DNA from: a virus
IMG/VR virus record: IMGVR_UViG_3300008113_004172
Location: 1 to 48,145 of that record
Length of the DNA: 48,145 nucleotides
Direction: 5' to 3' (one strand)
Shown piece after piece: positions 26,258 through 46,405 of the stretch. Below the pieces are notes generated by a model. That model had not been told where the DNA came from. It saw only the letters and a program-made list of their open reading frames with translations, and did no database searches. Numbering within the stretch: the first letter of the stretch is position 1; each line of letters begins with the position of its first letter. A program made the translations under genes and the position numbers.

Positions 26258-26272
26258 AACTGTTTGGCGATG

Positions 26273-26281: not shown

Positions 26282-26356
26282 TAGAGAGTAGGTGTATCTA
26301 TATAATGCTTACCATATAACAACCGCAAGACAAACATAATGTTTTTATGTCTTCGA

Positions 26357-26364: not shown

Positions 26365-26386
26365 AAAGAAAAAGAGGTTTCTTTCT

Positions 26387-29300: not shown

Positions 29301-29611
29301 CTAGCGTTATTAATTTTGGAAGTCTCGTTGAAAGTCTTTCGCATCAATTCAACCTTGCATCAGCCGGTGTTAACATAAATGCGCTTCCACTAAACTTTAG
29401 AAGACTAGGTGCGCCGATTTCAGCATCTGCTTCTGTATCTCAAGAAGATGGTGGACGAGTAAGATGGTCCGGTGCAGACGAATTAAATAACCAATACTTC
29501 GCAAGAGGTCTTAAAATCAATGGTAGAACCGGTCGCCTTGAAGGAAGACCGTTTACATCTTCAGTTAGAAAACTAGCTCGTAGGGCTTCAAATAGTAGGG
29601 CAATCTTATGA
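26387..29611 (+). CDS. large virion fibre protein, probable beta-helix
   Basis: 1074 residues. The N-terminus (SKISELGRITGSLTKSKDLF...DDGTKTLTRAEL) is a typical phage-fibre attachment head. TIDDSAVQDSTIQDSIIDDS-type repeats (~75-100) are followed by a YVSVDGNDNNPGSYMQPVAT segment (~145-165), the usual opening of right-handed beta-helix fibres, and beta-helix-like turns to ~480. A helical middle has duplicated motifs (KCERDVGYILEGVGYDLALG near 535 and LCSRDTGFIVDALTHDLNYN near 670). The C-terminus is basic. Similar long proteins are virion components in marine T4-like phages. Receptor or accessory fibre; substrate unknown. Confidence 0.65.
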   Translation: MSKISELGRITGSLTKSKDLFVTVSLDQGDDGTKTLTRAELVNAVQQEIFDTIKIDGGDYIQNIPLNNVTIDDSAVQDSTIQDSIIDDSVINNPNINVDTEFTPSISGDDYFYLKDISLGETVAMSYSQLYDEISKSVKKAKKIYVSVDGNDNNPGSYMQPVATLEKAVQMANAASLTVPTDILGRKLVHISVNPGSYYTNGELSLPDWCSVTSSSGQYTTNIVMNNGYESKNCFLLGSGCYVQGFSFFNFKVDNFDDPTGGFAFAFRPGVKITRSPYLRDCSQISNYFERDIPPLLNPFNSRGTIDDLGYELTISNVSPSASKFEVGDRIETSNGVAGVISRIAEIGSGTIYVRNNTGLFESNTSITTSSGGTATITDVGEEDYPNKDVGRGGGMILADRAHVDQDSLFPYILAFGATPRTQNGIGYVAKNGAGINGISSLSIFSRCSFYALNGGQITLNNSGTQFGDISMRAKGSTPVFNPYQTSVLLSSNTVLADTLTNSANTIIDDLIDNYITANTSVGGLGLQTYNSTKCERDVGYILEGVGYDLALGTNYWSIVNGIAYRRAESEIVVDEQLVETSGAIEYLKTTVAELLEESPESVTRTDDSFDEIIDILENGIASADALVFSSTGNTNFNKARLLLIANRTLIRNRVISYINTTYPALVYDETLCSRDTGFIVDALTHDLNYNSNIATIVNADAYFTNAVSTLPVDQRAPTADAIRFLGTICSSIMLGTLSGQSTASGIATQAEANRCIELTGIIERVISKNSLQELPGAQEPDLSWVSTVYKNSKELIEKNVKKLKKLTVAFVNSEYNFIDDNLTRRDARNLITSIANDFKLGRQTGTRIFTAGLFNFQGKHVFSVFNPNTVGLNYIGSYASTSAVSATTVNVNDAIIVYSSPSNLYAGTVYYSNGSAWVSDGANDVDLLNAFTGSFNHIRTYIKNNITTSVANETMLDGLIDDVLIASVRNPSVINFGSLVESLSHQFNLASAGVNINALPLNFRRLGAPISASASVSQEDGGRVRWSGADELNNQYFARGLKINGRTGRLEGRPFTSSVRKLARRASNSRAIL

Positions 29612-30072
29612 CAGCAAACACTGTAATCACGACAGTTAGAACATCGCAGTCTCCGGACGCAAAACCAGTAGCAGTAAATAAAACGCTAACAACAAATTTT
29701 GTTGAAATTATTTCAGTGCCTGATTTTGAAGTACCAGAACTTGTGTTTGGTGGTAGCTTTATAACCGCGCCTGGTGTAGCAGAAGTTATATCTCCACTTA
29801 TGATTTCAAATAAAACACCAAATACCGTGTATGTAGATCTTCAGATATATCGTCTATATGATTACTCTACAGATCCAGTCACATCCGTCACTGGCACATT
29901 TTCTCTAGCAACAAACATACCAATTCCAGGATACGACGTGCTTCCGTTTCCACTCAATGGACAGTTCTTCTATAATGGAGATCTTCTTGAGGCGAAGGCG
30001 AGTACAAACGATGCTATAGACATTACATTATCGTTTACACTTGGGCAAGCAGAAGAATACTTGGAGGATTGA
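29608..30072 (+). CDS. small beta-rich structural protein
   Basis: 154 residues, almost entirely beta-strand in pattern, with no cysteines. The core VPELVFGGSFITAPGVAEVI and TVYVDLQIYRLY suggests an Ig-like or jelly-roll fold, as found in small head or fibre decoration proteins. It starts inside an ATGA overlap with the fibre gene and ends three bases before the collagen-like gene, so it belongs to the fibre operon. No family recognised. Confidence 0.6.
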   Translation: MTANTVITTVRTSQSPDAKPVAVNKTLTTNFVEIISVPDFEVPELVFGGSFITAPGVAEVISPLMISNKTPNTVYVDLQIYRLYDYSTDPVTSVTGTFSLATNIPIPGYDVLPFPLNGQFFYNGDLLEAKASTNDAIDITLSFTLGQAEEYLED

Positions 30073-30075
30073 TAT

Positions 30076-31668
30076 ATGACTCTTAAGACACTAAGAGGTA
30101 AAATTCCAATAATAGGGCCTGCTATTAAGCAGGCACTACCTATTCAATTAGATCCTACTGCATATGAAGGTTCTATTTTATACGCAGAAGATGGTGCATT
30201 AAGAATATCTGATGGAGCTAATTGGAACGTTGTAAGTCCAGGATCACAGGGTATTCAAGGCGTACAGGGTATTCAAGGCATACAAGGCATTGGCTCCCAA
30301 GGCATACAGGGCCCGCAGGGCGTACAAGGTATCCAAGGTTTTCAGGGCGTACAAGGGAATTTAGGGCCTGGTATTAATATCATTGGTTCCGTACCAGATG
30401 TAAATGTGGCTCCTCCAAATAACCCTCAAACTACTTTAAATGCCGCCTTTCCAGCAGCTTTAGCTGGCGACGCAGTAATTGACGAAGCACTAGGTGATGT
30501 CTGGGCATATAACGGCACAACTTGGATTAACGGTGGAGAAATAAGAGGCCCACAGGGTATACAAGGTACTCAAGGTATACAAGGTCTTCAGGGTAGCAAT
30601 GGAAACACTGGCGGTCAAGGTACTCAAGGTTTTCAAGGTACTCAAGGTTTTCAAGGTACTCAGGGTATAAGAGGCGACGAGGGAATTCAAGGTACGCGAG
30701 GCTTTGTGGGAGAGCAAGGCACTCAAGGCATTCAGGGATCGCAAGGTGTTCAGGGTGATTTAGGAAACCAAGGTACTCAAGGTATTCAGGGCCCACAGAG
30801 TGTGCAGGGACCTCAGGGTGTACAAGGTAATTTAGGAAACCAAGGTACTCAAGGACTTGAGGGCGCAGCAGCATTCCAGGGCATCCAGGGTACACAGGGT
30901 CCTACTGGTATTCAAGGTGCGACTGGCGTTCAAGGTACAACTGGTTCGCAAGGCATTCAGGGTACAACTGGAACTCAGGGAACGATCGGTACTCAGGGAG
31001 CAACCGGTGTACAAGGAACGACAGGCACACAAGGTCTTACTGGAACACAGGGCCTTGGTGGTACTGGAACACAAGGTTTTCAAGGTACAACAGGCGAACA
31101 AGGAACGACGGGTACACAAGGTACAACTGGAACACAAGGAACTATTGGATCTCAAGGTGTCAGTGGAACAGTCGGCGGAACCGGTGTACAGGGAACTCAA
31201 GGACTCCAAGGCAATCAAGGTGAACAAGGACTTCAGGGAACTCAGGGTGAACAAGGAACTACTGGCTCGCAAGGTGTTGATGGTACTATCGGAGGCACCG
31301 GTGTACAGGGAACTCAAGGGACGACAGGCGAACAAGGAACTACTGGCTCGCAAGGCGTTGATGGTACTATCGGAGGCACCGGTGTACAGGGAACTCAAGG
31401 GACGACAGGCGAACAGGGAACGACCGGAACCCAGGGTGCTGGCGGTGGTACAGGAAGTACTGGTGTACAGGGTACACAGGGAACGACCGGTGCGCAAGGT
31501 ACTACTGGAACGCAGGGAATAACCGGATCTCAAGGTACTACAGGCTCGCAAGGAATTTCTGGAGCAGCCACTACAGTAAGCGATGATACAGCTCAACAAC
31601 AGGAACGGTCACCGATCTTAATGTTTCTTCGTCTAAATTATTCTTTAATCCATCTACCGGCCAGTTGA
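30076..31668 (+). CDS. collagen-like tail fibre, 3' frameshifted
   Basis: 530 residues as read. A head (~1-55; SILYAEDGALRISDGANWNV), a short Gly-X-Gln collagen-like stretch (~57-97), a globular insert (~98-155; DEALGDVWAYNGTTWINGG) and a long Gly-X-Y domain (~157-497) made mostly of GxQ triplets such as GIQGTQG and GTTGTQG. Such repeats form trimeric triple helices in phage fibres; Gln at Y, rather than Pro, is typical of phage collagen. The last ~30 residues (after SDDTA) are out of the natural frame: the following base change shifts the gene out of its S74 domain at 31593-31955. Confidence 0.75.
   Translation: MTLKTLRGKIPIIGPAIKQALPIQLDPTAYEGSILYAEDGALRISDGANWNVVSPGSQGIQGVQGIQGIQGIGSQGIQGPQGVQGIQGFQGVQGNLGPGINIIGSVPDVNVAPPNNPQTTLNAAFPAALAGDAVIDEALGDVWAYNGTTWINGGEIRGPQGIQGTQGIQGLQGSNGNTGGQGTQGFQGTQGFQGTQGIRGDEGIQGTRGFVGEQGTQGIQGSQGVQGDLGNQGTQGIQGPQSVQGPQGVQGNLGNQGTQGLEGAAAFQGIQGTQGPTGIQGATGVQGTTGSQGIQGTTGTQGTIGTQGATGVQGTTGTQGLTGTQGLGGTGTQGFQGTTGEQGTTGTQGTTGTQGTIGSQGVSGTVGGTGVQGTQGLQGNQGEQGLQGTQGEQGTTGSQGVDGTIGGTGVQGTQGTTGEQGTTGSQGVDGTIGGTGVQGTQGTTGEQGTTGTQGAGGGTGSTGVQGTQGTTGAQGTTGTQGITGSQGTTGSQGISGAATTVSDDTAQQQERSPILMFLRLNYSLIHLPAS
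31261..31422 (+). repeat. 81-base tandem duplication in collagen domain
   Basis: Units 31261-31341 and 31342-31422 differ at about three positions. Each encodes 27 residues (nine Gly-X-Y triplets) including GVDGTIGGTG. The period is a multiple of nine bases, so triple-helix register is kept. Confidence 0.8.
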
Positions 31669-31955
31669 ACGCAAACGAATTCAACTCGCTATCGGATATT
31701 ACATACAAAGAAGATTTCCAAACGATAGATAGCGCTACAGACATACTCGATAAAATAAAGGCATATCAGTTTACGTGGAAAAACACTGGTGTTAAAAGCT
31801 ACGGTGTAATTGCGCAAGAACTTGAAAAGTTACTACCAGAACTAATAAACAATACGCATGGTTCTAAGTATGTCAACTATATTCCTCTAATTGCTATCTT
31901 GTTAGAAGGATATAAAGATCTTTCTAGTCGCATAAAGAGTTTAGAAAAAGAATAA
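31593..31955 (+). pseudogene. displaced S74 chaperone end of the collagen fibre
   Basis: In the -1 frame from about 31593 the sequence reads STTGTVTDLNVSSSKLFFNP, STGQLNANEFNSLSD, then a complete Peptidase_S74 domain (YQFTWKNTGVKSYGVIAQEL, LLPELINN, LIAILLEGYKDLSSRIKSL). This is the natural continuation of the collagen-like fibre, so one base (probably a T after GCT at 31591-31593) is missing. No slippery heptamer is near the junction, which argues against programmed frameshifting. An ATG at 31665 could start the domain on its own but has no ribosome site. Confidence 0.75.
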
Positions 31956-32017: not shown

Positions 32018-32179
32018 TCGCCGCTTTGTCTCCAAGTATATATTCCGGGTGTAACTGGCCAATTAAGATATAACACAACGGACGCAACATTCGAAGGTTT
32101 TAACGGGACTGCGTGGGGCCCGCTAGGGGGTGGTGCTGACGAACTTGCAAGAACTCTGGCAACGTTGGCGCTACCATAA
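32018..32179 (+). pseudogene. remnant C-terminus of a further tail fibre
   Basis: A stop-free frame without a start, after a TGA at 32015-32017. Its part IPGVTGQLRYNTTDATFEGF then NGTAWGPLGGGADE is the common C-terminal module of phage fibres (GQLRYNT...FEGYNGTAWG). It ends in a TAA that shares its last A with the ATG of the first RCC1 gene, so the intact fibre gene was once translationally coupled to it. The bases 31956-32017 upstream hold fragments in other frames and no gene. Confidence 0.6.
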
Positions 32180-33528
32180 TGACTGTAGGAATACAACCAC
32201 TCGTAGATGAAGTAAATACAAATGTAGCAGGGGCGTTAACAACCCTAGAGCAGTTGCAACTCGCGAGTGTAATGCAAGATTTTGATCAAGGATTTACAAA
32301 GTGCGTAGCTAACTGCGCAGCGCTTCCAGCTGCAGCTGATAACAAAGGTCGTTGGATCTTTCTTCAAGACGTTTGCAGTTATCGTTGGAGCGACGGGACA
32401 GCTTGGTCAAGAGATTTTGCTAGTATTGAACAAAATATTGCTTTTTCATTTGGATGCAATGCTGATAACCAGCTGGGTGACAGAACCACAACCAACAGAT
32501 CTTCTCCAGTGTCAGTCTTAGGTGATGTCTTATACTGGTGTCAGGTGAGCGCTGGTAATGGATTTAATATTGGAGTTCGCAGTGATATGACTGCTTGGGG
32601 TTGGGGCTGTAACGCAGGGGGCGAACTAGGTGACTGTACTAGCGTTAATAGAATCATACCTAGGCCAGTCGTTGGTGGCTTTGGTGACTGGTGTCAGGTT
32701 AGTGCCGGAGCAAATCATAGTATAGGTGTTCGTCAGAATGGAACTGCTTGGGCCTGGGGGTTGGGATCATGTGGTCAGCTGGGTGATGGAACTTCAGTAA
32801 GCAAGTCTTCTCCAGTATTAGTCGTCGGCGGTTTTACGGACTGGTGTCAAGTAAGCGCCGGTGAACACTTCATACTTGGTGTTCGTCAAAATGGAACGGC
32901 CTGGGGTTGGGGTTGTGGTAGTGGAGGTCGTCTCGGTAACGAAACAACAGTCAATAAATGTTCTCCAGTATCAGTCGTTGGCGGTTTTAGTGACTGGTGT
33001 CAGGTTAGCGCTGGGTCCGCTCACAGTCTAGGTGTTCGACAGAACGGGACCGCTTGGGCCTGGGGATGTAATACTTGTGGCCCACTGGGCGACGGCACTA
33101 CAGTTGATAAATCTTCTCCTGTGTCAGTCGTAGGTGGCTTTACCGACTGGTGTCAGGTTAGTGCCGGAGCAAATCATAGTCTAGGTGTTCGACAGAATGG
33201 AACTGCTTGGGGTTGGGGTGCTGGCGCTGACGGACGCATTGGTAACGGAACTATAGTTAGTGTATCTTCTCCAGTGTCAGTCGTCGGCGGGTTCACGGAC
33301 TGGTGTCAAGTAAGTGCCGGGCTTGGGCACAGTCTAGGCGTTCGCCAAAATGGCACCGCTTGGGCTTGGGGACAGGGTTCAACTGGTCGTCTTGGTGATG
33401 GCACGGTCGTAAACAAATCTTCTCCAGTGTCAATCGCTGGCGGACTAACCGGTTGGAGATGCGTAAGTATATATACAAATGGTAATCATAGCTTAGCTGT
33501 TAGATCTGATAGTACGAAGGGTTTTTAA
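32179..33528 (+). CDS. RCC1 seven-blade propeller protein A
   Basis: 449 residues. An N-terminal domain (~1-85: a helix, then LPAAADNKGRWIFLQDVCSY and a DGTAW turn) precedes seven RCC1 repeats of about 51 residues with consensus LGDGTTVNKSSPVSVVGGF then DWCQVSAG, HSLGVR and NGTAWAWG. The strand FSFG before repeat 1 supplies the piece missing from the last repeat, the usual ring closure of seven-bladed propellers. RCC1 folds bind partners on one face; in a phage fibre cluster an adhesin is the likely role (inferred). Six paralogues form a tandem array; no signal peptide or membrane segment is seen. Confidence 0.8.
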   Translation: MTVGIQPLVDEVNTNVAGALTTLEQLQLASVMQDFDQGFTKCVANCAALPAAADNKGRWIFLQDVCSYRWSDGTAWSRDFASIEQNIAFSFGCNADNQLGDRTTTNRSSPVSVLGDVLYWCQVSAGNGFNIGVRSDMTAWGWGCNAGGELGDCTSVNRIIPRPVVGGFGDWCQVSAGANHSIGVRQNGTAWAWGLGSCGQLGDGTSVSKSSPVLVVGGFTDWCQVSAGEHFILGVRQNGTAWGWGCGSGGRLGNETTVNKCSPVSVVGGFSDWCQVSAGSAHSLGVRQNGTAWAWGCNTCGPLGDGTTVDKSSPVSVVGGFTDWCQVSAGANHSLGVRQNGTAWGWGAGADGRIGNGTIVSVSSPVSVVGGFTDWCQVSAGLGHSLGVRQNGTAWAWGQGSTGRLGDGTVVNKSSPVSIAGGLTGWRCVSIYTNGNHSLAVRSDSTKGF

Positions 33529-33529
33529 T

Positions 33530-34843
33530 ATGAACGTAACGAATCTAATACTCAATCTTAAATCAAAAATCGGCGATGCTACGATTGATCAGCAGATGCT
33601 TTCAAAAGCAATAAAATTGTTAGAACTTGGTACTATTGAATCAGTTTCATCATTTTCAAGTCTTCCGAACGCTGCTACAACAGGCAGAGATAAATTATAC
33701 TTGGTTGAGTTTGACGGCCTATACAAAACTAACGGAACTTATTGGGCGCCTTTTGCTCAGGATTTTTCACCAGCTTTTTCCTGGGGATGTAATACTTGTG
33801 GCCCACTGGGCGACGGCACTACAGTTGATAAGTCTTCTCCAGTGTCAGTCGTTGGTGGCTTTACCGACTGGTGTCAGGTAGATGCAGGTCACAACCATAG
33901 TCTAGGAGTTCGTACTAACGGAACTGCTTGGGCTTGGGGTCAAGGCTCAGATGGTCGCCTTGGTGACGGAACAGCAGTCAATAAATCTTCGCCTGTGTTA
34001 GTCTCTGGAGGATTTAGTGACTGGTGTCAGGTAAGCGTTGGATATATGCAAAGTATAGGAGTTCGACAGAACGGGACCGCTTGGGCTTGGGGTGCTGGTA
34101 TTGGCGGACAACTTGGTGATAATACAATAGTTGATAAGTCTTCTCCAGTTTCAGTCGTAGGTGGCATTACAGACTGGTGTCAAGTAAGTGCTGGGGAATG
34201 CTACAATTTAGGAGTGCGCCAAGGTGGGGGCGCTTGGGCGTGGGGATCGGCAATCAACGGGAAACTAGGCGACGGAACAACAGTCGGTAAATCTTCGCCA
34301 GTATTAGTAGCAGGCGGTTTTAGTGACTGGTGTCAGGTAGATGCAGGTAACTACCATAGTCTAGGAGTTCGACAGAACGGGACTGCTTGGGCTTGGGGCA
34401 CTGGTTGCCGTGGGCAGGTTGGTGACGGAACAACAGTTAATAAATCTTCTCCTGTGTTAGTCGTAGGTGGCTTTACCGACTGGTGTCAGGTTAGTGCCGG
34501 ATTTGTTCACAGCATAGGAGTTCGTCAGAATGGAACCCTGTGGGCATGGGGGCAAGGGGTAGGAGGTCTACTAGGTGATAACACTGTAGTTGCTAAATCT
34601 TCTCCAGTGTCAGTCGTTGGAGGTTTTACAGATTGGTGCCAAGTGAGTGCTGGAGGTGTTCACAGTTTGGGTATTCGCACAAATGGAACAGCTTGGGCTT
34701 GGGGTTGCGGCACAAATGGTCGCCTTGGTGATAATACAACAGTTAATAAATCTTCGCCTGTGTTAGTCTCTGGAGGATTTAGTGACTGGTGTCAGGTAAG
34801 TACTTTTGTCACTAGCGCAGCAATTAGGAGAACGAATGTATGA
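33530..34843 (+). CDS. RCC1 seven-blade propeller protein B
   Basis: 437 residues. The N-terminal ~78 residues (NLILNLKSKIGDATIDQQML helix, then SSLPNAATTGRDKLYLVEF and NGTYW) differ in sequence from protein A but keep its plan. Seven RCC1 repeats follow, closed by an N-terminal FSWG strand. Repeat 1 is encoded by DNA that matches repeat 5 of gene A exactly for about 50 bases (33059-33110 and 33780-33831). Repeat 3 has QGGGAWAWG for QNGTAWAWG. It begins two bases after gene A and ends with an ATGA overlap into gene C. Confidence 0.8.
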   Translation: MNVTNLILNLKSKIGDATIDQQMLSKAIKLLELGTIESVSSFSSLPNAATTGRDKLYLVEFDGLYKTNGTYWAPFAQDFSPAFSWGCNTCGPLGDGTTVDKSSPVSVVGGFTDWCQVDAGHNHSLGVRTNGTAWAWGQGSDGRLGDGTAVNKSSPVLVSGGFSDWCQVSVGYMQSIGVRQNGTAWAWGAGIGGQLGDNTIVDKSSPVSVVGGITDWCQVSAGECYNLGVRQGGGAWAWGSAINGKLGDGTTVGKSSPVLVAGGFSDWCQVDAGNYHSLGVRQNGTAWAWGTGCRGQVGDGTTVNKSSPVLVVGGFTDWCQVSAGFVHSIGVRQNGTLWAWGQGVGGLLGDNTVVAKSSPVSVVGGFTDWCQVSAGGVHSLGIRTNGTAWAWGCGTNGRLGDNTTVNKSSPVLVSGGFSDWCQVSTFVTSAAIRRTNV

Positions 34844-36210
34844 ACTTAGCACAATTTCAAATATTACTCCAAAAAGCAATCGACAGTTCAAGTAATACAC
34901 TCGATTACCTATTTCTATCAAGAGCAGTCCAAACTCTAGCCGTAGGACAGGTAAGAGAAGTTGCCACATACGCAAACTTACCTTCAGCTGCATCTAACGA
35001 AGGACTGTTAGTATTCGTAACGGCGGATGAAAGGATTTATTGGAGTACTGGAACTGGCTGGTATAATCTTATCGATGAAAATAAAGGAATTGCGTATGCA
35101 TGGGGTGGTGGGTTTAGAGGTAAACTAGGTGATAATACAGAAGTCAATAAATCTTCTCCAGTTTCAGTCATTGGTAGCTTTACAGACTGGTGTCAAGTAA
35201 GCGCCGGTGGTAGTCACAGTATTGGCCTTCGCTCTAACGGAACTGTCTGGGCATGGGGGTGTAGTGCATATGGCCGCCTCGGTGATAACTGCACTGTTCT
35301 ACCAAGTTCTTCTGGTAGATCTTCACCAGTATCAGTAGTCGGCGGTTTTACAGACTGGTGTTATGTAAGTGCCGGGGATGACCACAACTTAGGTGTTCGT
35401 ACTAATGGAACTGCATGGGGTTGGGGAAACCCGTGCCATGGGGTACTAGGTAACAACTTCAACGGTTCCATTAATGTTATTGATGGAACCGGTGGTTTCT
35501 CTTCTCCTGTGTCAGTCGTAGGTGGCTTTACAGACTGGTGTCAAGTGAGCGCTGGGAACGCTCACAGTCTAGGTGTTCGACGGAACGGGACCGCTTGGGC
35601 TTGGGGATGCGGTAGTTACGGTCTTCTTGGCGATGGCACTACAGTATGCAAGTCTTCTCCAGTATTAGTCGTCGGCGGTTTTACGGACTGGTGTCAGGTA
35701 GATGCAGGTGGCGGTCGCAACTTAGGTGTTCGCCAAAATGGAACTGCATGGGGTTGGGGTTGCGGCTCCAATGGTCGCCTTGGTGACGGAACAACAGTTA
35801 ATAAATCTTCTCCAGTGTCAGTAGTTGGAGGCTTTACCGACTGGTGTCAGGTTAGCGCTGGGTCCGCTCACAGTCTAGGTGTTCGTACTAACGGAACCGC
35901 TTGGGCGTGGGGAGCGGCTTTCTGCGGGAAACTAGGCGACGGAACAACAGTCAATAAATCTTCGCCAGTATCAGTCGTCGGTGGGTTCTTTGACTGGTGT
36001 CAGGTTAGTGCCGGAGCAAATCATAGTCTAGGTGTTCGCCAGAATGGAACCGCTTGGGCATGGGGAATTGCTGCTTGCGGCGTTTTAGGATCTGGTGCGC
36101 CTGCCAATGCATCTTCTCCAGTATCAGTCGTCGGTGGCTTTACAGACTGGTGTCAAGTAAGCGCTAGCAATTATCACAGCTTAGCTCTAAGAAGAACAAA
36201 TTTCGTATAA
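34840..36210 (+). CDS. RCC1 seven-blade propeller protein C
   Basis: 456 residues. N-terminal helix (LAQFQILLQKAIDSSSN), the YANLPSAASNEGLLVFVTAD attachment-like module, then seven RCC1 repeats opened by the closing strand AYAWG. Repeats 2 and 3 carry longer loops (LPSSSGR and NNFNGSINVIDGTGG) where other blades have the short TTVNK turn, so this protein has the most altered rim. An 80-base stretch (35500-35579) is identical to gene F at 40103-40182. Confidence 0.8.
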   Translation: MNLAQFQILLQKAIDSSSNTLDYLFLSRAVQTLAVGQVREVATYANLPSAASNEGLLVFVTADERIYWSTGTGWYNLIDENKGIAYAWGGGFRGKLGDNTEVNKSSPVSVIGSFTDWCQVSAGGSHSIGLRSNGTVWAWGCSAYGRLGDNCTVLPSSSGRSSPVSVVGGFTDWCYVSAGDDHNLGVRTNGTAWGWGNPCHGVLGNNFNGSINVIDGTGGFSSPVSVVGGFTDWCQVSAGNAHSLGVRRNGTAWAWGCGSYGLLGDGTTVCKSSPVLVVGGFTDWCQVDAGGGRNLGVRQNGTAWGWGCGSNGRLGDGTTVNKSSPVSVVGGFTDWCQVSAGSAHSLGVRTNGTAWAWGAAFCGKLGDGTTVNKSSPVSVVGGFFDWCQVSAGANHSLGVRQNGTAWAWGIAACGVLGSGAPANASSPVSVVGGFTDWCQVSASNYHSLALRRTNFV

Positions 36211-36234
36211 TGATAATTACAAAGGAGAAAATAA

Positions 36235-36876
36235 ATGTATGCAGTAGTTTATAACGATAGAGTAATTGTCGGACCAATGGATTGGAACCGCGCAATTTTT
36301 CAAGGATCTCTAGAAAAAGAAAATGTCACGGCTGGCATTCCTAGAGTAGCGCCAGAAACTCTTCCATATATTATTAATGAAGACACAAGAATTGCACTAG
36401 TAGAAGAACAGAGACCAGAAATCAATCCTATGGTAGAATACTACTATGGACCACAGTGGGATCTTTCCGGTGACAAGGCGGTCGCAGTATATGAAGTAGT
36501 AGATACACTAGTTGATTTCGCTCGCGATAATTTTAAAACTAAAGCGGCCGAAGCAAGATGGAAAAAAGAAACAGCTGGAACGAAAATAAATATACAAGGT
36601 ACCGAAGTTAGTCTAGATACTAGCCGTGACGGAAGAAATATTTTCATACAGAAGTATTCTATTATGACGGAAGAAGAAGTTGCAAATTGGAAATTCCCAG
36701 AAGGTTGGCTCACTCTTACAAAGAGCGATCTTGGTTCTATTGTTTCTGCCGGTTCGAGTTATATTCAAAGTTGCTTTGACTGGGAGAAAACAATTAATGA
36801 TGAAATTAATGCAGCGACATCAAAAGAAGAATTGGTATCTATTGGTGAACAAATAGCGGAACAGATGGTAGAATAA
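36235..36876 (+). CDS. DUF4376-like fibre-associated protein
   Basis: 213 residues. The first half (YAVVYNDRVIVGPMDWNRAI; PEINPMVEYYYGPQWDL) is a common start of phage fibre-linked proteins; the second half (residues ~100-205: ARWKKETAGTKINIQGTEVS, SLDTSRDGRNIFIQK, EGWLTLTKSDLGSIVSAGSS, SCFDWEKTINDEI) resembles DUF4376, often met beside tail fibres as an assembly or adaptor domain. It has the best ribosome site in the region (AAAGGAG) and the only non-RCC1 gene inside the array. It may help several propeller proteins fold or attach; inferred from position. Confidence 0.6.
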   Translation: MYAVVYNDRVIVGPMDWNRAIFQGSLEKENVTAGIPRVAPETLPYIINEDTRIALVEEQRPEINPMVEYYYGPQWDLSGDKAVAVYEVVDTLVDFARDNFKTKAAEARWKKETAGTKINIQGTEVSLDTSRDGRNIFIQKYSIMTEEEVANWKFPEGWLTLTKSDLGSIVSAGSSYIQSCFDWEKTINDEINAATSKEELVSIGEQIAEQMVE

Positions 36877-36877
36877 T

Positions 36878-38242
36878 ATGCCCCCAATCGATAAACCAGG
36901 TTTGGTATCAAAACTAACGACCGTAGTTAATACTGCGTATGAAACCGGGTCATATCTTGTTGAAGACGTATTAGCAACATCTTTATCTATGACTGCACTG
37001 AGTGAGATTAATATTGTCACTGTATCTGACGTACTTTCATTGCCGAATCTTAAATATTACGATTCGCCAAACGCAATGATCTATTACGTTAACGATATAG
37101 ACGTATTTGCGGTAAGTTCTAATTTTAAGTGGCTAACACTTGACGGCAGGCTTCTAAGGCAGGATACCACATACGGAAAAATTTGGTCTTGGGGAAATAA
37201 CAATCTTGGCCAACTAGGTGATAGTACAGCAGTTTCTAAATCGTCTCCGGTATCAACTGCACCATCTGGTTGGTGTCAGTTAAGCGCTGGCGAATGTCAT
37301 AGTTTGGCCGTCTGTACAAATGGTACAGCATGGGCTTGGGGTTCAAACTTTTTAGGTAAACTTGGTGACAATACTGCTGTCACCAAGTCTTCTCCAGTGT
37401 CAGTAGTTGGCGGCTTCACAGACTGGTGCCAAGTTAGTGCTGGGAACTATCATAGTCTAGGTGTTCGCACTAATGGAACGGCTTGGGCTTGGGGGGCAAA
37501 CACTTTTGGGCAGCTAGGTGACTGCACTACAGTCGCAAAGTCTTCACCAGTATCAGTAATTAGCGGTATTACAGGGTGGTGTCGTGTAAGCGCAGGCACA
37601 CTGTTTAGTATCGGAATTAGAGCAAACGGTGAAGCGTTTGGTTGGGGCAATGCCGGGTCTGGCCGTCTTGGGGATGGTACCACAGTTTCTAAATCTTCGC
37701 CTGCTCTAATTTCTGGAGGATTTAATAACTGGTGTCAGGTTAGTGCTGGCGGAGGTCATGCACTAGGAGTGCGTACCAATTCATCCGTTTGGGCTTGGGG
37801 AGGAAACTCTTTCGGTCAACTCGGTGATAACACGGTAGTTTCTAAATCTTCTCCAGTACAAGTAGTCGGTGGTTTTAATAACTGGCGCGAGGTAAGCGCT
37901 GGTGGGTGTCACAGCCTTGGCCGCAGATCTGATGGAACTTTATATGCCTGGGGGAATGGTTGCTGCGGCAACCTCGGAGACAACTGCACAGTTTCCAGAT
38001 CATCTCCAGTGTCAGTCTCTGGAGGATTTACAGACTGGTGCCAAGTAAGCGCAGGATGCTGCCATAATATAGGTGTTAGAACTAATGGCACAGTCTGGGC
38101 TTGGGGTGTCGGGACATGTGGTCGTCTAGGAGACAATGCTGTCGCTAATAGATCTTCGCCAGTATCAGTCGTTGGTGGCTTTACAAGCTGGTGCGCGGTT
38201 AGTGCAGGTAACGACCATAGTCTAGGGATAATAAGCTTATGA
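36878..38242 (+). CDS. RCC1 seven-blade propeller protein D
   Basis: 454 residues. N-terminal ~97 residues start MPPIDKPGLVSKLTTVVNTA and include VSDVLSLPNLKYYDSPNAMI and YYVNDIDV. Seven RCC1 repeats follow after IWSWG. It is the most divergent member: blade 1 has STAPSGWCQLS, blade 5 has DWCQV replaced by NWREV and GRRSDGTLYAWG, and blades 5-6 carry cysteine-rich loops (GGCHS, NGCCG, GCCHN). It starts one base after the DUF4376-like gene and ends with an ATGA overlap into gene E. Confidence 0.8.
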   Translation: MPPIDKPGLVSKLTTVVNTAYETGSYLVEDVLATSLSMTALSEINIVTVSDVLSLPNLKYYDSPNAMIYYVNDIDVFAVSSNFKWLTLDGRLLRQDTTYGKIWSWGNNNLGQLGDSTAVSKSSPVSTAPSGWCQLSAGECHSLAVCTNGTAWAWGSNFLGKLGDNTAVTKSSPVSVVGGFTDWCQVSAGNYHSLGVRTNGTAWAWGANTFGQLGDCTTVAKSSPVSVISGITGWCRVSAGTLFSIGIRANGEAFGWGNAGSGRLGDGTTVSKSSPALISGGFNNWCQVSAGGGHALGVRTNSSVWAWGGNSFGQLGDNTVVSKSSPVQVVGGFNNWREVSAGGCHSLGRRSDGTLYAWGNGCCGNLGDNCTVSRSSPVSVSGGFTDWCQVSAGCCHNIGVRTNGTVWAWGVGTCGRLGDNAVANRSSPVSVVGGFTSWCAVSAGNDHSLGIISL

Positions 38243-39366
38243 TAAATTCACAAAACCTCATAAATAAAATTTGTGCTTGCATAAGTGGAGGCGGGCTCAC
38301 AGCGTTACAAACTTGCCAAACAAACGGTGCCTTAACTATTCTAAGTAATCCTGTATCTAGCGTAGCAAGTTTTGCTAACTTGCCAAACGCAGTAACATAC
38401 GCAGGAAGACTGATATATGTTAATGATGAAAACCGCTATTATCACGCGGTAGACGGATATTGGTTTAATAATCTCACTAGTGAAGTTTTTAACTATCGCC
38501 CAGACATTTATGCTTGGGGATATAATGCCACAGGTGGGCTTGGCGACGGAACCGTAGTCAACAGATCTTCTCCAGTATCAGTCGTTGGCGGCTTTACAGA
38601 TTGGTGTAATGTAAGTGCCGGATACCTCCACGGTTTAGGTGTTCGTACTAATGGAACCGCTTGGGCATGGGGAGTTGTTGGCGGCTTTACAGACTGGTGT
38701 CAAGTGAGCGCTGGGAACGCTCATAGTCTAGGTGTTCGTACTAACGGAACTGCTTGGGCATGGGGTCCTGGGACATACGGTCGCCTCGGTGACAACAGCA
38801 CAGTTTCCAGATCATCTCCAGTATCAGTTGTTGGCGGCTTTACAGACTGGAGTCAAGTAAGCGCTGGGGGCAGTCACAGTCTAGGTATTCGACGAAATGG
38901 AACGACTTGGGCATGGGGGGATGGAGTATCCGGTCGTCTTGGTGACGGAACAACAGTCAATAAATCTTCTCCTGTGTCAGTCGTAGGTGGCTTTACAGAC
39001 TGGTGTCAAGTGAGCGCTGGGGGCGGTCGTGCGGCGGGCGCTCACAGTCTAGGTGTTCGTACTAATGGAACTGCATGGGCTTGGGGGGATGGAACATGCG
39101 GTCGCCTTGGTAATAATACAATAGTCAACAGATCTTCTCCAGTATCAGTCGTTGGCGGCTTTACCGACTGGTGTCAGGTTAGTGCCGGAACAAATCATAG
39201 TCTAGGTGTTCGACAGAACGGGACCGCTTGGGCTTGGGGAACTGCTTTCTGCGGCGTTCTTGGCGACAACACGATAGTTTCAAAATCTTCTCCAGTGTCA
39301 GTCGTCGGCGGGTTCACGGACTGGTGTCAAGTAAGCGCAGGCGAAACTCATAATCTAGGAAGCTAA
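38239..39366 (+). CDS. RCC1 propeller protein E, damaged
   Basis: 375 residues as read. N-terminal domain (NSQNLINKICACISGGGLTA, SFANLPNAVTYAGRLIYVND, YHAVDGYW) then RCC1 repeats after IYAWG. Repeat 2 has lost the first ~20 residues in frame (WAWG runs directly into VVGGFTDWC near 38670). Repeat 4 has a GGGRAAGAH insertion. After HNLG in repeat 6 a deletion of about 75 bases, not a multiple of three, brings a stop (39364-39366); the rest of the last blade survives out of frame at 39365-39469. The seven-blade ring cannot close normally as read. Confidence 0.75.
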   Translation: MINSQNLINKICACISGGGLTALQTCQTNGALTILSNPVSSVASFANLPNAVTYAGRLIYVNDENRYYHAVDGYWFNNLTSEVFNYRPDIYAWGYNATGGLGDGTVVNRSSPVSVVGGFTDWCNVSAGYLHGLGVRTNGTAWAWGVVGGFTDWCQVSAGNAHSLGVRTNGTAWAWGPGTYGRLGDNSTVSRSSPVSVVGGFTDWSQVSAGGSHSLGIRRNGTTWAWGDGVSGRLGDGTTVNKSSPVSVVGGFTDWCQVSAGGGRAAGAHSLGVRTNGTAWAWGDGTCGRLGNNTIVNRSSPVSVVGGFTDWCQVSAGTNHSLGVRQNGTAWAWGTAFCGVLGDNTIVSKSSPVSVVGGFTDWCQVSAGETHNLGS

Positions 39367-39469
39367 GTCTTCGCCAGTGTCAATCGTAGGTGGACTAACT
39401 GGCTGGTGTCAAATAAGCGCTGACCTTTGCTCTAGCATGGCTATTCGCCAATCACGGAAAGGATTTTAA
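39365..39469 (+). pseudogene. out-of-frame last blade of RCC1 protein E
   Basis: In the shifted frame the bases encode KSSPVSIVGGLTGWCQISAD then a SSMAIRQ ending and stop TAA at 39467-39469, the base before the ATG of gene F. This matches the terminal half-blade of the intact paralogues (such as GGLTGW in A and F), showing the lesion is a deletion inside gene E. Confidence 0.75.
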
Positions 39470-40804
39470 ATGGCTACGCAAGATGACATAAACAACTTTA
39501 CTTCTAGTAATTCTGTCGGATGCTTTTTAAAGCTAGCAGCACAAACATACGTTGATACTACGAATAGAAGTATTTCTGTTGCGACCGTAGACGATCTTCC
39601 GGACTTAAGCGGTAATACTATTATACCAGGAACTATATTTTACGTTGAAAGTTTGGGTGTTCCAGTAATTGCGCAAGTCGGGTGCTGGAGCGGATTGGAT
39701 AACCGTCAGTTAAGAAGCGATTTTAATACGAATTTAATTTACGCGTGGGGGTTTCCTACTTCAGGACGCCTAGGTGATAATACTACTGTGTCTAAATCTT
39801 CTCCAGTGTTAGTCGCTGGAGGGTTTAATGACTGGCAAGCAGTAAGCGGCACTGGCTCGCATGCCTTAGGCATACGTTCTAATGGAATCGCTTGGGCTTG
39901 GGGTGCTGGTACTTCTGGAGAACTTGGTGATAATACAACAGTTGATAAATCTTCTCCAGTGTCAGTCGTTGGTGGCTTTACAGACTGGTGTCAAGTAAGC
40001 GGTGGTGGTGTTCACAGTTTGGGTATTCGTACTAATGGAACTGCATGGGGTTGGGGCGCAAACACTTTTGGCAATATTGGTGATAACACCGGTGGTGGTA
40101 AATCTTCTCCTGTGTCAGTCGTAGGTGGCTTTACAGACTGGTGTCAAGTGAGCGCTGGGAACGCTCACAGTCTAGGTGTTCGTACTAATGGAACTGCATG
40201 GGGTTGGGGATGTAATACTGGCGGTGGACAACTTGGCGACAACACGACAGCGACTAAATCATCACCAGTATCGGTTGTTGGCGGCTTTACAGACTGGTGC
40301 CAAGTAAGTGCGTCGGTGCACAGTCTAGGTGTTCGCCAAAATGGCACCGCCTGGGCTTGGGGGGATGGAGCATGCGGGCGTCTTGGTGATTACACTACAG
40401 TTGCTAAATCTTCTCCAGTGTTAGTCGTCGGCGGGTTCACGGACTGGTGTCAAGTAAGCGCAGCAAGATGCCATAGTCTAGGTGTTCGACAGAACGGGAC
40501 CGCTTGGGCTTGGGGTCTTGGAACTGACGGCCGTCTCGGTGACAACACTGTAGCTGCCAAATCTTCTCCAGTGTCAGTCGTCGGTGGCTTTACGAACTGG
40601 TGTCAGGTGGCTACAGGCTGCACCCACAGCATAGGTGTCCGACAGAACGGAACTGTCTGGTCTTGGGGTGACAACACCTTTGGACAACTAGGTCACGGCA
40701 CTTTGGTTGCTAGATCTTCTCCAGTGTCAGTTGCTGGTGGGTTAACCGGCTGGAGTCAAGTTAGCGCAGGCATAGTGTTCAGCACAGCCGTAAGAGCAGT
40801 ATAG
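39470..40804 (+). CDS. RCC1 seven-blade propeller protein F
   Basis: 444 residues. The N-terminal ~88 residues (FTSSNSVGCFLKLAAQTYVD, DDLPDLSGNTIIPGTIFYVE) share only the general plan with the other members. Seven RCC1 repeats follow after IYAWG. Repeat 1 has DWQAVSGTGSHALGIR for the usual DWCQV phrase; repeat 4 has lost two residues (SASVHSLG). The last blade ends SAGIVFSTAVRAV. It directly follows the gene E remnant and is the last gene before the sugar island. Confidence 0.8.
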   Translation: MATQDDINNFTSSNSVGCFLKLAAQTYVDTTNRSISVATVDDLPDLSGNTIIPGTIFYVESLGVPVIAQVGCWSGLDNRQLRSDFNTNLIYAWGFPTSGRLGDNTTVSKSSPVLVAGGFNDWQAVSGTGSHALGIRSNGIAWAWGAGTSGELGDNTTVDKSSPVSVVGGFTDWCQVSGGGVHSLGIRTNGTAWGWGANTFGNIGDNTGGGKSSPVSVVGGFTDWCQVSAGNAHSLGVRTNGTAWGWGCNTGGGQLGDNTTATKSSPVSVVGGFTDWCQVSASVHSLGVRQNGTAWAWGDGACGRLGDYTTVAKSSPVLVVGGFTDWCQVSAARCHSLGVRQNGTAWAWGLGTDGRLGDNTVAAKSSPVSVVGGFTNWCQVATGCTHSIGVRQNGTVWSWGDNTFGQLGHGTLVARSSPVSVAGGLTGWSQVSAGIVFSTAVRAV

Positions 40805-40935: not shown

Positions 40936-41496
40936 ATGAAGATTAATCTTGGCGCTGGTGGAACGAAGCTCGATGGTTTTGTAACTCTAGATTACGACCC
41001 GCTTGAAAATCCAGACTATATCGTAGATCTGGAAAAAGACACACTGCCATTCGAAGATAGCACAGTTGAAGTTGTTATCGCTCATCACATACTCGAACAT
41101 CTTGGGCCTGGTTATTTCCATTGCCTTAAAGAAATCTATCGAGTCTGTAAGCATGGAGCGACGATAGACATTCGTGTTCCGCATCATCGGCACGACTACT
41201 TCTACGACGACCCAACACATCGTAGACCAATTACTGTTGGTGGTCTTCTTCTTTTTAGTAAGAAACATAATAAACTATGCAGGGAACAAGGCGCTGCGTC
41301 AAGCAGACTCGGTGATTACTTTAAAGTTGACTTTGAGATCCTAGATTACAACTATATGCCATCTCAGCAATACCGAGATCAGTTTGTTGGTGAACCGAGA
41401 GATGTTGTTGAAAAGTATCTTCGCGAACACAATAACATTATTGAAGAACTCTGGGTGAATTTAGTGGTGATCAAAGATGAACACGGCGGAAAATAA
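40936..41496 (+). CDS. class I SAM-dependent methyltransferase
   Basis: 186 residues. MKINLGAGGTKLDGFVTLDY contains the glycine motif (NLGAGG) and acidic residue that hold S-adenosylmethionine; DLEKDTLPFEDSTVEVVIAH and HILEHLGPGYFHCLKEIYRV are motifs II and III of the Methyltransf_11 type, found in surface-sugar gene clusters. HHRHDYFYDDPTH gives a His/Asp-rich substrate region. The substrate is unknown; a sugar or lipid is likely from the neighbours. It overlaps the next gene by 20 bases. Confidence 0.75.
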   Translation: MKINLGAGGTKLDGFVTLDYDPLENPDYIVDLEKDTLPFEDSTVEVVIAHHILEHLGPGYFHCLKEIYRVCKHGATIDIRVPHHRHDYFYDDPTHRRPITVGGLLLFSKKHNKLCREQGAASSRLGDYFKVDFEILDYNYMPSQQYRDQFVGEPRDVVEKYLREHNNIIEELWVNLVVIKDEHGGK

Positions 41497-42826
41497 ATTT
41501 AAGATAGAAGATCTAAAACCCGTTGTAATGGATCTTCTATCTCACGAAAAACGCGAAATCGTATTTGATATTCTTAACATGTATTTTCAAAGAGCAGAGG
41601 GTATAGGGGACTTTGATGCTCTTGGATATCTGGCACTAAAAGCAGAACACCGCGATTTGTATCTGAAATGTGCAGAAGCTGCATATACGAAGGCCGAAAG
41701 TCCTCAACAACTATACATCGCCAGATCAAACCTCTATAAAGCATATAACGCAATGAATATGCCGGATGATGCTCTATTCTATATTAATCTAAATCTGATG
41801 ATCACGCCGGATGACTTTGAGACTCAGACTCAAAAAGCGTTTAATATCGCACTCAAGGGAGATAGAACGGCGTCAGAAAAGATACTGTTAGACTTACTTG
41901 AAAAACATCCAGAGAAGCGAGAGGACATGAGAAGTGCTCTGTCGGGTAAAACGCTTCGTGAAGGAAAACTTGCAGAGGGAGTCTTGTCGTTCCTTGGGAC
42001 GTTTAAGCCAAAGAGTGGCAAGTTTGATGATGCTCTTAAGATGAAGCGGTGGACCGGAGCAATTCAACCAGGTAAGACTGTCTATATAGAGGGAGAGGGA
42101 GGTATAGGTGACGAGATCATCAACATTCGCTTTTTCAAATATCTTAAAGACTTAGGAATGAGACCAATACTCTACTCGTCGTGGTCTAAGTATCGCGAAG
42201 ACACCGTGAATATGTTTCGTAGAAATGGGTTTGAAGTAATAACTGAGTACTATTCAATTGATCGGACACAACTATGGGCACCGATGATGAGTCTTCCAGG
42301 GTATCTCAATCTCGACGAATCTAAATTGTGGTATGGTTCGTATCTTAAACCTTTGAATGATCCAAAGAATAAAATCAATAGCACTAAGTTTAAAATTGGT
42401 ATCAAGTGTTCAGGAAATCCATACTTTTCGCAAGATGAGTATCGTAAGATACCAATCGAAAAGATGTTAGAATACTTACCAGAGAACGCAGAGATCTATT
42501 ACATCGACAAGCAGCCAATAAATAATCCTAGAGTAATAGATCTATCGTCAAGAATAGAAACTTGGGAAGATACACTCGACTTTATTGAACAGATGGACTG
42601 TATCGTAAGTTCGTGCACGAGCTTGGTTCATGCCGCTGGCGCTATCGGAAAAACATCTTTTGTTGTAGTTCCAATTGCGGAGTATTACATTTGGTCTACT
42701 TCCAGTAAGACGTCAAAGTCTCCTTGGTATGGAGATAACTTTCAAGTACACAAACAGACTAAAGTTCGAAGCTGGGACGAACCTCTGCAATGCGTAAATG
42801 AACAACTTTTGAAATTGATTGGATAA
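41477..42826 (+). CDS. TPR plus heptosyltransferase-like glycosyltransferase
   Basis: 449 residues. An N-terminal helical TPR-like part (~1-170; YLALKAEHRDLYLKCAEAAY, SNLYKAYNAMNMPDDALFYI) joins a GT-B-like C-terminal half: VYIEGEGGIGDEIINIRFFK (~199-220) as in GT9 N-domains, and MDCIVSSCTSLVHAAGAIGK near 374-393, equal to the donor-binding DT..aHlAgAlg phrase of heptosyltransferases. Proteins with TPR and GT9/41-like halves occur in phage and bacterial surface clusters. The sugar is unknown. Confidence 0.7.
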   Translation: MNTAENKFKIEDLKPVVMDLLSHEKREIVFDILNMYFQRAEGIGDFDALGYLALKAEHRDLYLKCAEAAYTKAESPQQLYIARSNLYKAYNAMNMPDDALFYINLNLMITPDDFETQTQKAFNIALKGDRTASEKILLDLLEKHPEKREDMRSALSGKTLREGKLAEGVLSFLGTFKPKSGKFDDALKMKRWTGAIQPGKTVYIEGEGGIGDEIINIRFFKYLKDLGMRPILYSSWSKYREDTVNMFRRNGFEVITEYYSIDRTQLWAPMMSLPGYLNLDESKLWYGSYLKPLNDPKNKINSTKFKIGIKCSGNPYFSQDEYRKIPIEKMLEYLPENAEIYYIDKQPINNPRVIDLSSRIETWEDTLDFIEQMDCIVSSCTSLVHAAGAIGKTSFVVVPIAEYYIWSTSSKTSKSPWYGDNFQVHKQTKVRSWDEPLQCVNEQLLKLIG

Positions 42827-42828
42827 TT

Positions 42829-43332
42829 ATGAACAAAACATATCACTTCATAACAGGTCTGCCTCGGTCGGGTTCAACTCTGTTATCATCTATACTTCGT
42901 CAGAACCCAAGGTTTCACGCTTCAATTACTGACCCACTGGCAAGTCTAGTTAAGGGAGTTATTGAACATAGTCAAGACGCTCCTGGAATGAAATCTGAAG
43001 TTCCTGTTGAACGCAGAAAGAACCTTGTGCGGCATTTATTCGAAGGTTACTACGAAGACGTCGATAGGCCAGTAGTATTCAATACAAATAGAGCATGGAC
43101 ATACCTAACAAATGTTACTCGTGATCTCTATCCAAAATCAAAATACATAGTTTGTGTAAGGGATTTGAATTGGGTAATAGACAGCTTTGAGTCTGCCCAT
43201 CGCAGAAATCCATTCTCCACAAACACGGTGACTGGTGGCGTAGGAAGTTCAGTGTATCAACGAGTAGATAGTCTTATGAAGGAAGACGGGGTTGTAGGTT
43301 TTCCATACGTTGGAATTAAGCAGACTTCATAG
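42829..43332 (+). CDS. sulfotransferase, truncated by internal deletion
   Basis: 167 residues as read. HFITGLPRSGSTLLSSIL at the start is the PAPS 5'-phosphosulfate loop of sulfotransferases; SKYIVCVRDLNWVIDSFESA near 105-124 is the 3'-phosphate-binding part. The frame stops after FPYVGIKQTS, but the family's C-terminal part continues in another frame from 43326. About 30 residues (the usual IEYD...TM..IY segment) are missing between the two pieces. An intact version would sulfate a sugar or polysaccharide. Two bases separate it from the preceding gene. Confidence 0.7.
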   Translation: MNKTYHFITGLPRSGSTLLSSILRQNPRFHASITDPLASLVKGVIEHSQDAPGMKSEVPVERRKNLVRHLFEGYYEDVDRPVVFNTNRAWTYLTNVTRDLYPKSKYIVCVRDLNWVIDSFESAHRRNPFSTNTVTGGVGSSVYQRVDSLMKEDGVVGFPYVGIKQTS

Positions 43333-43514
43333 AAGAACCTTATTTTGAACATGATTTTAATAATGTAGAAGCTTCTTGGGATGAGTACGACGCAGAGATT
43401 GGTATTAAACTTCACGACGTTCGTAAGAAAGTTGAATTCCGCGAAAGAAAGTTTATACTTCCACCAGATATCCTTAATAAGCACGCAAATATGGAATTTT
43501 GGCGACAACTATGA
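43326..43514 (+). pseudogene. C-terminal part of the sulfotransferase, other frame
   Basis: Reads FIEEPYFEHDFNNVEASWDE, then YDAEIGIKLHDVRKKVEF and a LPPDI...FW end, the standard C-terminus of this sulfotransferase type. Its TGA (43512-43514) overlaps the next gene's ATG at 43511, the operon's usual ATGA junction, so the original gene ended here. The frame lacks any start of its own at the junction. Confidence 0.75.
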
Positions 43515-44137
43515 CTATAATAAAAAGAGAAGATGGTTTATATTGGCCAGAAATCGATGTCGATTCTTGCTATACATGGACTAATGTTGAATTATACACC
43601 GTAGATTCAATAGTAGGATCTCTTAAGAATAAGCGCACAATAATTCACGCGGGTGGAAACGTTGGAGCATACACTTTAAAATTTGCCGAAGCATTCGAGA
43701 CAGTTTATGTGTTTGAACCGGATGTTACAAACTTCAAGTGTCTATGCATGAATACTGCAGATCATGAAAACGTATTTCAGTTTAGAGCAGCACTAGGTAG
43801 TAAGGCATCGCAAGTTTCTATCACTAATGACACTCCAGAAAATTGCGGTACGTTTCGTGTAAAGGAAGATGGAAACATTCCTGTAATAACGATAGACAGT
43901 CTTGGATTGACAGACATAGATTGTATACATTTAGATGTTGAAGGTTACGAAATGAATGCATTACTCGGAGCAGAGAACACTATAAAACTGCATCGTCCAT
44001 TAATTGTAGTAGAATGGCTGGATCACGGTAAAAATTATGGTTGGGATAAAAAAGATATTATGAACTTTCTGCTTGATATGGGATATAATCAAATGAAACA
44101 AATCGGTTCTGATATGATGTTTAAAAATGAAAATTGA
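43511..44137 (+). CDS. FkbM-family methyltransferase
   Basis: 208 residues from the ATG that overlaps the sulfotransferase stop. TIIHAGGNVGAYTLKFAEAF (~41-60) is the SAM-binding motif, VYVFEPDVTNFKCL carries the family EPD phrase, and IDCIHLDVEGYEMNALLGAE is the LDVEG motif of FkbM enzymes. They O-methylate sugars and other surface molecules. An upstream TTG in the same frame exists but lies inside the old sulfotransferase end, so ATG 43511 is preferred. It overlaps the next gene by 11 bases. Confidence 0.8.
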   Translation: MTIIKREDGLYWPEIDVDSCYTWTNVELYTVDSIVGSLKNKRTIIHAGGNVGAYTLKFAEAFETVYVFEPDVTNFKCLCMNTADHENVFQFRAALGSKASQVSITNDTPENCGTFRVKEDGNIPVITIDSLGLTDIDCIHLDVEGYEMNALLGAENTIKLHRPLIVVEWLDHGKNYGWDKKDIMNFLLDMGYNQMKQIGSDMMFKNEN

Positions 44138-45841: not shown

Positions 45842-45852
45842 TTGGAGAATCT

Positions 45853-46398: not shown

Positions 46399-46405
46399 GT
46401 GCATA

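Follow-up and report, generated by a model that had tools for sequence, protein, structure and literature searches.

What use does a phage have for six genes that each encode a ring-shaped RCC1 propeller? The question is posed by the IMG/VR record IMGVR_UViG_3300008113_004172, from a freshwater virus of bacteria, which we analysed over its whole length of 48,145 bases (the window). The record is classed as linear, possibly a fragment, and carries tail and baseplate genes of the T4 type. The closest matches of its gp6-like baseplate protein among phage records were the Sinorhizobium phages phiN3, phiM19 and phiM12, at 39% identity. The six RCC1 genes (A to F), on the + strand like all window genes and domains given below, occupy positions 32179-40804, between tail-fibre genes (24974-31955) and an island of transferase-type genes (40936-47493). 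On balance, and with a modest lean, we read them as two sets of a three-component receptor-binding device on a T4-like phage tail, with a particular scheme of assembly and exchange.

Each set would consist of one alpha, one beta and one gamma protein, distinguished by their N-terminal domains. These class-specific domains would act as assembly tags that place each chain in a shared complex, in the simplest case an alpha-beta-gamma heterotrimer located at the end of a tail fibre or attached to the fibre. The C-terminal seven-bladed RCC1 ring would bind the host surface through hypervariable loops on one face, and a DUF4376 protein encoded between the partners would be a Tfa-like chaperone for their assembly. 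A phage with two or three sets could display its binding faces in different combinations. Recombination between the repeated genes would repeatedly overwrite the rings, and the heads could change with assembly undisturbed, because the N-terminal tags stay with their position. In this scheme we infer the shared face of the loops, the virion location, the heterotrimer, the chaperone role and the receptor binding.

Six ring genes in three classes

The initial annotation had described six tandem genes of seven blades each, five intact and one (E) damaged, and the open reading frames (ORFs) together with Pfam and a hidden Markov model (HMM) of the blade confirmed them. All six proteins matched Pfam RCC1 (PF00415), with E-values from 2e-31 to 1.4e-50, and five exceeded the cut-off of PF25390, E scoring 145.6 against 150. 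In the whole record, 40 single RCC1 repeats were found, 39 of them above the Pfam cut-off. Blade splitting and the blade HMM gave seven blades each in A, B, C, D and F. The rings of A (32440-33528) and F (39737-40804) rest on Pfam repeats and blade splitting, those of B (33773-34843) and D (37181-38242) on Pfam repeats and the blade HMM; the pattern-based splitting printed B and D as six units, the fifth of which comprises two blades.

Gene E (38239-39366, ring 38506-39366) gave six blade matches. Blade 2 lacked its first half and the frame was broken between blades 6 and 7, the seventh blade being recognizable by translation in another frame as a remnant at 39367-39469. In the five near-identical contigs spanning E (L009, L011, L012, L014 and L016; related loci are numbered with the prefix L) the gene was intact in every case, with 452 amino acids and seven blades. 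The damage is possibly an assembly fault, because the window misses short stretches carried by its near-identical relatives at several places (near 32045, 38672, 39360 and 43323), in and outside the repeats. Such a fault and a genuine lesion are equally likely. Some of the near-identical relatives show gaps of their own at other places.

From the six RCC1 proteins we modelled C (34840-36210) with AlphaFold, as a single chain and from 50 aligned sequences (mean predicted local distance difference test score, pLDDT, 89.7; predicted template modelling score 0.81). The model supports a closed seven-bladed ring for C (35092-36210), in line with the complete rings proposed at the outset. Residues 81-452 aligned with HERC2 RLD2 over 359 residues (Z 52.8, root-mean-square deviation 1.6), and the model also matched human RCC1 (Z 49.2), UVR8 (Z 49.2) and BLIP-II (Z 33.5). 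A strand at residues 82-89 opens the ring, which agrees with the N-terminal closing strand that had been predicted. The modelled fold of C is thus the propeller fold of RCC1, the HERC2 RLD, UVR8 and BLIP-II; unlike these, the phage proteins have a tail context, three N-terminal classes and two hypervariable loops per blade.

The N-terminal domains had been called unrelated-looking. Aligned with those of relatives, they share one domain pattern and split into three paralogous classes with two genes each. Class alpha comprises A (32179-33528; domain 32179-32439, alpha HMM 104 bits) and E (domain 38239-38505, 105 bits), class beta B (33530-34843; domain 33530-33772, beta HMM 86 bits) and C (domain 34840-35091, 102 bits), and class gamma D (36878-38242; domain 36878-37180, gamma HMM 103 bits) and F (39470-40804; domain 39470-39736, 102 bits). 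The window is therefore 2:2:2, with one alpha gene damaged.

Class labels were set by eye from the alignment and then tested on a tree of 54 N-termini from ten phages, in which alpha and gamma each formed a clade of 18 rows (support 100/99 and 100/95, respectively) and beta comprised the remaining 18 rows. The tree left out L009 (a copy of the window strain), L020, L025, L049, L052, L053, L056, L060 and genes 1 and 2 of L028. All ten phages had equal class numbers (1:1:1, 2:2:2 or 3:3:3). Class HMMs built from them gave 2:2:2 in L092, 3:3:3 in L147 and 2:2:2 in L160, three loci added afterwards. A second N-terminal family, common in many arrays, likewise has three classes; its tags are short, mostly about 35-60 residues ahead of the ring. 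L053 and L056 carry a third N-terminal type, on three genes around a DUF4376 gene, whose positions look orthologous by eye between both loci.

Contrary to the tandem arrangement first described, the array is not contiguous. A non-RCC1 gene between C and D (36235-36876) encodes a DUF4376 protein (Pfam PF14301, 36.8 bits against a cut-off of 25; phrog_10508, tail fibre). By analogy with other phages, this protein is a probable tail-fibre assembly chaperone. Excerpts of the relevant papers, which is how the literature is represented here and below unless a main text is named, report that in Alteromonas phage V22 co-expression of gp27 is required for a working receptor-binding protein (PMC7289586), that gp27 was later listed as a DUF4376 tail-fibre chaperone (PMC10579305), and that in a Campylobacter prophage fibre DUF4376 is the assembly-mediating part of Tfa (PMC7882524; see also PMC10877375). 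Tfa of phage Mu and V22 gp27 share with the window a DUF4376 domain encoded beside fibre genes, whereas the window gene is embedded in a set whose three ring proteins are paralogues. The DUF4376 protein model (pLDDT 97.4) matched phage DUF4376 proteins in BFVD, one of Synechococcus phage S-SRM01 among them, and had no PDB match at E <= 0.001. A prefoldin-like helical hairpin was considered and rejected, its Z of about 7 lying in the uninformative range of the tool, and we claim no fold. L149 and L195 encode proteins related to the DUF4376 protein and had no RCC1 gene within the stretches examined, so that this type of chaperone may also serve other proteins.

Sets of three in related phages

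The initial annotation had suggested comparing gene count and order among related phages. Using the DUF4376 protein and alignments of it as queries against viral contigs, we obtained 175 DUF4376 ORFs (some contigs being represented more than once), which formed 64 clusters at 90% identity and were tallied as 62 loci, L147 and L159 each holding two DUF4376 ORFs. RCC1 genes on the same strand chained within 5 kb were taken as an array, which was considered complete with at least 2 kb beyond both of its ends. The near-identical L012 represents the window in the array tallies and in the ring, tag and tract comparisons.

The RCC1 genes came in sets of three. Among 38 complete arrays, 25 had three RCC1 genes, eight had six, one had nine, one had four, two had two and one had none. 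Without L149, which has no RCC1 gene, and L143, whose third gene carries a gamma tag and is cut by the contig end, 34 of the 36 complete non-redundant arrays held 3, 6 or 9 genes, and a 35th would if the inverted neighbour in L202 were counted. Stricter margins of 5 kb on both sides left 19 of 21 arrays in multiples of three, with the same two exceptions (L149 left out).

The classes were balanced as well. With models built from 15 seed loci, the ratio was 1:1:1 in all 12 complete seed arrays and in 16 of the 18 held-out arrays with every gene classified. This first tag search covered the first 160 residues only. L126, L136, L206 and L143 were re-examined after the first count, and a whole-protein tag search added L126, L136 and, with weak scores, L206 as balanced, bringing the held-out arrays to 19 of 21. 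Overall, class numbers were equal in 31 of 33 classified complete arrays; L053, L056 and L123 have three genes for which no class assignment was possible. Nine of the ten complete arrays with more than three genes were balanced, in five gene orders. Written with a slash for the DUF4376 gene, the expanded orders were abb/gag, ab/gabg, ab/gabgabg, aabg/bg and aa/bgbg. L147, 254 bases off a contig end, had the order ab/abggabg.

Gene junctions were tight, with at most 50 nucleotides (nt) in 184 of 207 and an overlap in 54. Exactly seven blades were detected in 183 of 207 genes, some of which are cut by contig ends; a few had 15, 20, 21, 27 or 38. Single proteins with 20, 21, 27 and 38 blades were encoded in L145, L203, L117 and L198, respectively. 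Three of these numbers are near multiples of seven, suggesting, from the blade counts, chains of several rings. L203 and L099 are one contig (3300042292_000567) with two adjoining cassettes that have their own DUF4376 gene each; only L203 was counted as complete.

Three conserved classes kept at 1:1:1 across many phages argue for joint assembly rather than interchangeable alternatives. They would also be expected from the main rival, a branched complex modelled on the tail spikes of Ackermannviridae, where such receptor-binding complexes are known (PMC11414711). Here alpha, beta and gamma homotrimers would dock by their N-terminal domains at three sites of one adhesin, and the ratio would reflect three obligatory docking positions. 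The distinct and positionally conserved N-terminal classes fit this arrangement. The tags of the second family, however, are short for both docking and trimerisation, and docking sites would not require the sets to double and triple in step. We consider a branched complex unlikely, if the most serious competitor.

A more improbable explanation is block duplication only, in which a triplet of single origin was later copied as a whole, also into itself, and the balance is inherited and functionally meaningless. The orders ab/gabg and ab/gabgabg resemble end-to-end copies, and abb/gag, aabg/bg, aa/bgbg and ab/abggabg could have been obtained by nesting a triplet and losing a DUF4376 copy. The majority of arrays are, moreover, plain triplets of shared ancestry. 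Copying alone leaves the rarity of single-member loss unexplained. The abb/gag set is complete in four phages although their same-position N-termini are on average 42-63% identical, and one unbalanced extra copy (L201) was found among the ten expanded complete arrays.

Variable loops and probably exchanged rings

We calculated loop entropies at variable positions, restricted to blades that are bounded by two W-x-W-G motifs and exactly 51 residues long. Variation was highest in two loops of the blade, those after WG and after SAG. In the window strain L012 (23 blades) these had 2.4 and 3.2 bits, against 0.45 and 0.41 in the other two loops. The values were 2.9 and 3.9 against 1.3 and 1.1 bits in the long N-terminal family (210 blades), and 2.9 and 3.7 against 1.3 and 0.5 bits in the short one (131 blades). 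The antiparallel strand order in the model of C would put the two variable loops on the same face. A diversity-generating retroelement was rejected as the source of the variation: RVT_1 had no match in 11 records, of which ten may be fragments (a control detected it in 3 of 14 genomes), and the strain differences are short patches.

Tags and rings behaved differently when gene positions were compared between four phages of the same six-gene order (L012, L017, L018 and L024). For the N-termini, the best match was at the same position in 36 of 36 comparisons, with mean identities of 42-63% at the same position and 26-27% at other positions. For the rings it was at the same position in 6 of 36, which is the chance level, and same- and other-position identities lay within about one point.

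In eight arrays, the longest stretches identical between different RCC1 genes of one genome measured 48-104 nt; between the four genomes no identical tract was longer than 35 nt. In the window, a 66-nt tract of C is identical in F, at a site where relatives of C differ. Some of the strain-specific patches recurred unchanged at another place in their array; for others there was no such copy. Repeats mixed up during assembly might mimic exchange in any one contig, but the pattern was seen in all eight arrays measured.

Variable loops would also be expected if the six proteins bound receptors independently of one another, were interchangeable and served to broaden the host range, and so would the patchy differences between strains in the array, next to 6.8 kb of upstream DNA that is identical between the window and L012. 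This possibility is still less probable than block duplication, as it does not explain the three classes, their equal numbers (31/33) and the usual minimum of three. The initial annotation had proposed a family of alternative receptor-binding or surface adhesins. Its adhesin part is supported by the fibre neighbours (8/9 loci), the DUF4376 gene, the variable loops and adhesin-like extra domains in relatives; "alternative" is not the best reading of two sets of three partner classes kept at 1:1:1.

Going further than the window, one could propose that a widespread group of tailed phages uses an obligate heterotrimeric alpha-beta-gamma adhesin with a different RCC1 ring on each arm, in which tags are fixed, rings are freely traded and one chaperone serves an antibody-like combinatorial head. 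We put this forward tentatively, as a possibility that falls short of probable.

Fibre context and known RCC1 systems

Pfam and PHROG matches place the window array in a fibre gene cluster. Upstream lie a tail-fibre protein (24974-26257; PHROG long tail fibre distal subunit, 2e-51), a large tail-fibre protein of 1074 amino acids (26387-29611; PHROG tail fibre, 3.7e-16), a collagen-like tail-fibre protein (30076-31668; Pfam Collagen, 3.9e-51; PHROG tail fibre) and a Peptidase_S74 (endosialidase-type chaperone) domain (31665-31955; Pfam S74, 3.1e-13; PHROG tail). The upstream protein was scanned in 9 of 22 listed loci, those with large ORFs. The nearest large one was of fibre, collagen or S74 type in eight of the nine and a baseplate protein in the ninth. 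Two relatives, L108 and L142, had an extra Gly-rich domain over the cut-off, and L201 had a Gp38-adhesin match under the cut-off.

Genome-condensing or DNA-organising proteins inside the head, the common annotation of phage RCC1 genes, are a very improbable explanation that we set aside: the window proteins have such PHROG names and this role was suggested for phAPEC6 and W70, but the array lies in a tail-fibre cluster beside a DUF4376 tail-fibre-type gene, its variability is focused in two loops, and relatives carry Gly-rich domains and one weak Gp38-like extra domain.

No phage system with such an array was known to the initial annotation. Multi-copy RCC1 genes have in fact been published for jumbo coliphages, with 13 copies in 121Q, 6 in PBECO4, 11 in phAPEC6 and 1 in GAP32, and a role in DNA condensation was suggested; one RCC1 protein of GAP32 is a virion protein (PMC5259590). 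A search of open-licence papers, by title and opening of the abstract, turned up neither a three-class cassette with a chaperone nor the rule behind it, and nothing on a chaperone gene embedded in such an array or on tags uncoupled from rings.

Phage 121Q resembles the window in having its RCC1 genes in tandem. They are, however, spaced about 70 nt apart and surrounded by small hypothetical genes, whereas sets of the window type are tightly packed and fibre-linked. They had no tag-model match, and the sole DUF4376 match of 121Q is far from its RCC1 array. In Escherichia phage W70 (Septuagintavirus), three adjacent RCC1 genes have products that were all detected in purified virions, with spectrum counts of 233, 196 and 141 (PMC11370258). 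The W70 proteins differ by being very divergent: the blade model matched one of the three ORFs, there was no tag match, and the divergence is too high for classes to be assigned. The receptor-binding protein of Staphylococcus phage phi11 is a trimer with three propeller domains (PMC4901313); it differs in being a homotrimer with five-bladed propellers of another type.

Several points weigh against the three-component reading. The array counts are not independent, because the loci are related by descent and were collected by way of either their DUF4376 gene or their similarity to RCC1 proteins; this also makes the presence of DUF4376 partly a product of the search. L201 is a complete array with four RCC1 genes at 1:1:2 (alpha:beta:gamma), and in L202 the third RCC1 gene is on the opposite strand and matched no class model. 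RCC1 groups outside DUF4376 arrays break the rule, as in L069, with four RCC1 genes and no tag match. The 202-kb contig 3300046318_000439, one of the ten phages of the tree and read as two separate ends (L028 and L026), carries two RCC1 genes of 19 and 7 blades without class tags in addition to a 2:2:2 set. Class beta is less firmly defined than the other two, because it was a single group in just 10% of bootstrap trees. Equal gene numbers fit any obligate set, the heterotrimer being one case, and all expanded orders can be derived by inserting a whole triplet inside another, so that balance could be kept without selection. The positional signal of the rings could also fade by fast change at variable sites; the long identical tracts within genomes favour exchange. 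The virion evidence comes from distant proteins, as the 121Q and W70 stretches had no tag-model match, and no DUF4376 match was found in the whole W70 record.

To our knowledge, phage fibres are generally homotrimers. A heterotrimeric alpha-beta-gamma adhesin, if true, would be a new design of receptor-binding apparatus, adding a multi-chain architecture with exchangeable heads to phage host recognition. DNA condensation is a frequent annotation for phage RCC1 proteins. The array makes the case, open to test, that a sizeable group of these proteins are tail adhesins that obey a three-partner rule; if so, that common annotation would be corrected. The array would also provide a natural repeat scaffold, with two variable loops per blade on a constant frame.

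The idea is directly testable in the cultivated Synechococcus phage S-SRM01, which carries a minimal set: gp335, gp337 and gp344, plus gp336 with DUF4376 over the cut-off. This phage was the sole match of the L110 DUF4376 protein among 50,697 phage records, in which it is present as two records. The order is alpha, DUF4376, beta and, 4.3 kb further and past a long-tail-fibre gene, gamma. The three RCC1 genes had 20 detected repeats (6, 7 and 7, the alpha ring having 6), which equals the 20 RCC1 matches of the whole record; those matches that were listed fall within the three genes. In contrast to our reading, the genes are annotated as regulator of chromosome condensation or hypothetical, and the main text of the S-SRM01 paper (PMC8557907) does not contain the words RCC1 or chromosome condensation. 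Another cultivated Synechococcus phage, BUCT-ZZ01 (L082, 6131-8233), encodes a single RCC1 protein of 14 blades, close to a fibre gene, in place of a set of three.

Long RCC1 proteins were also seen on the 202-kb contig, where L028 encodes proteins of 19 blades (9272-13138) and 14 blades (16290-18779). Between them (13148-14599) lies a protein with a collagen-like N-terminus followed by a seven-blade ring.

In the window, the collagen-like ORF and the Peptidase_S74 ORF (30076-31955) look like a single gene with a frame change between them, and the latter is probably the detached C-terminus of the former. In L017, one ORF of 1400 amino acids had collagen-type matches and the same C-terminal PHROG families. 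Across 31661-31931, in the S74 region, 19 differing sites split the near-identical strains into two groups. Downstream of the array, the island (40936-47493) encodes two methyltransferase-type proteins, a sulfotransferase, a cytidylyltransferase-type protein and unassigned ORFs, together with a glycosyltransferase-like protein that scored just below its cut-off.

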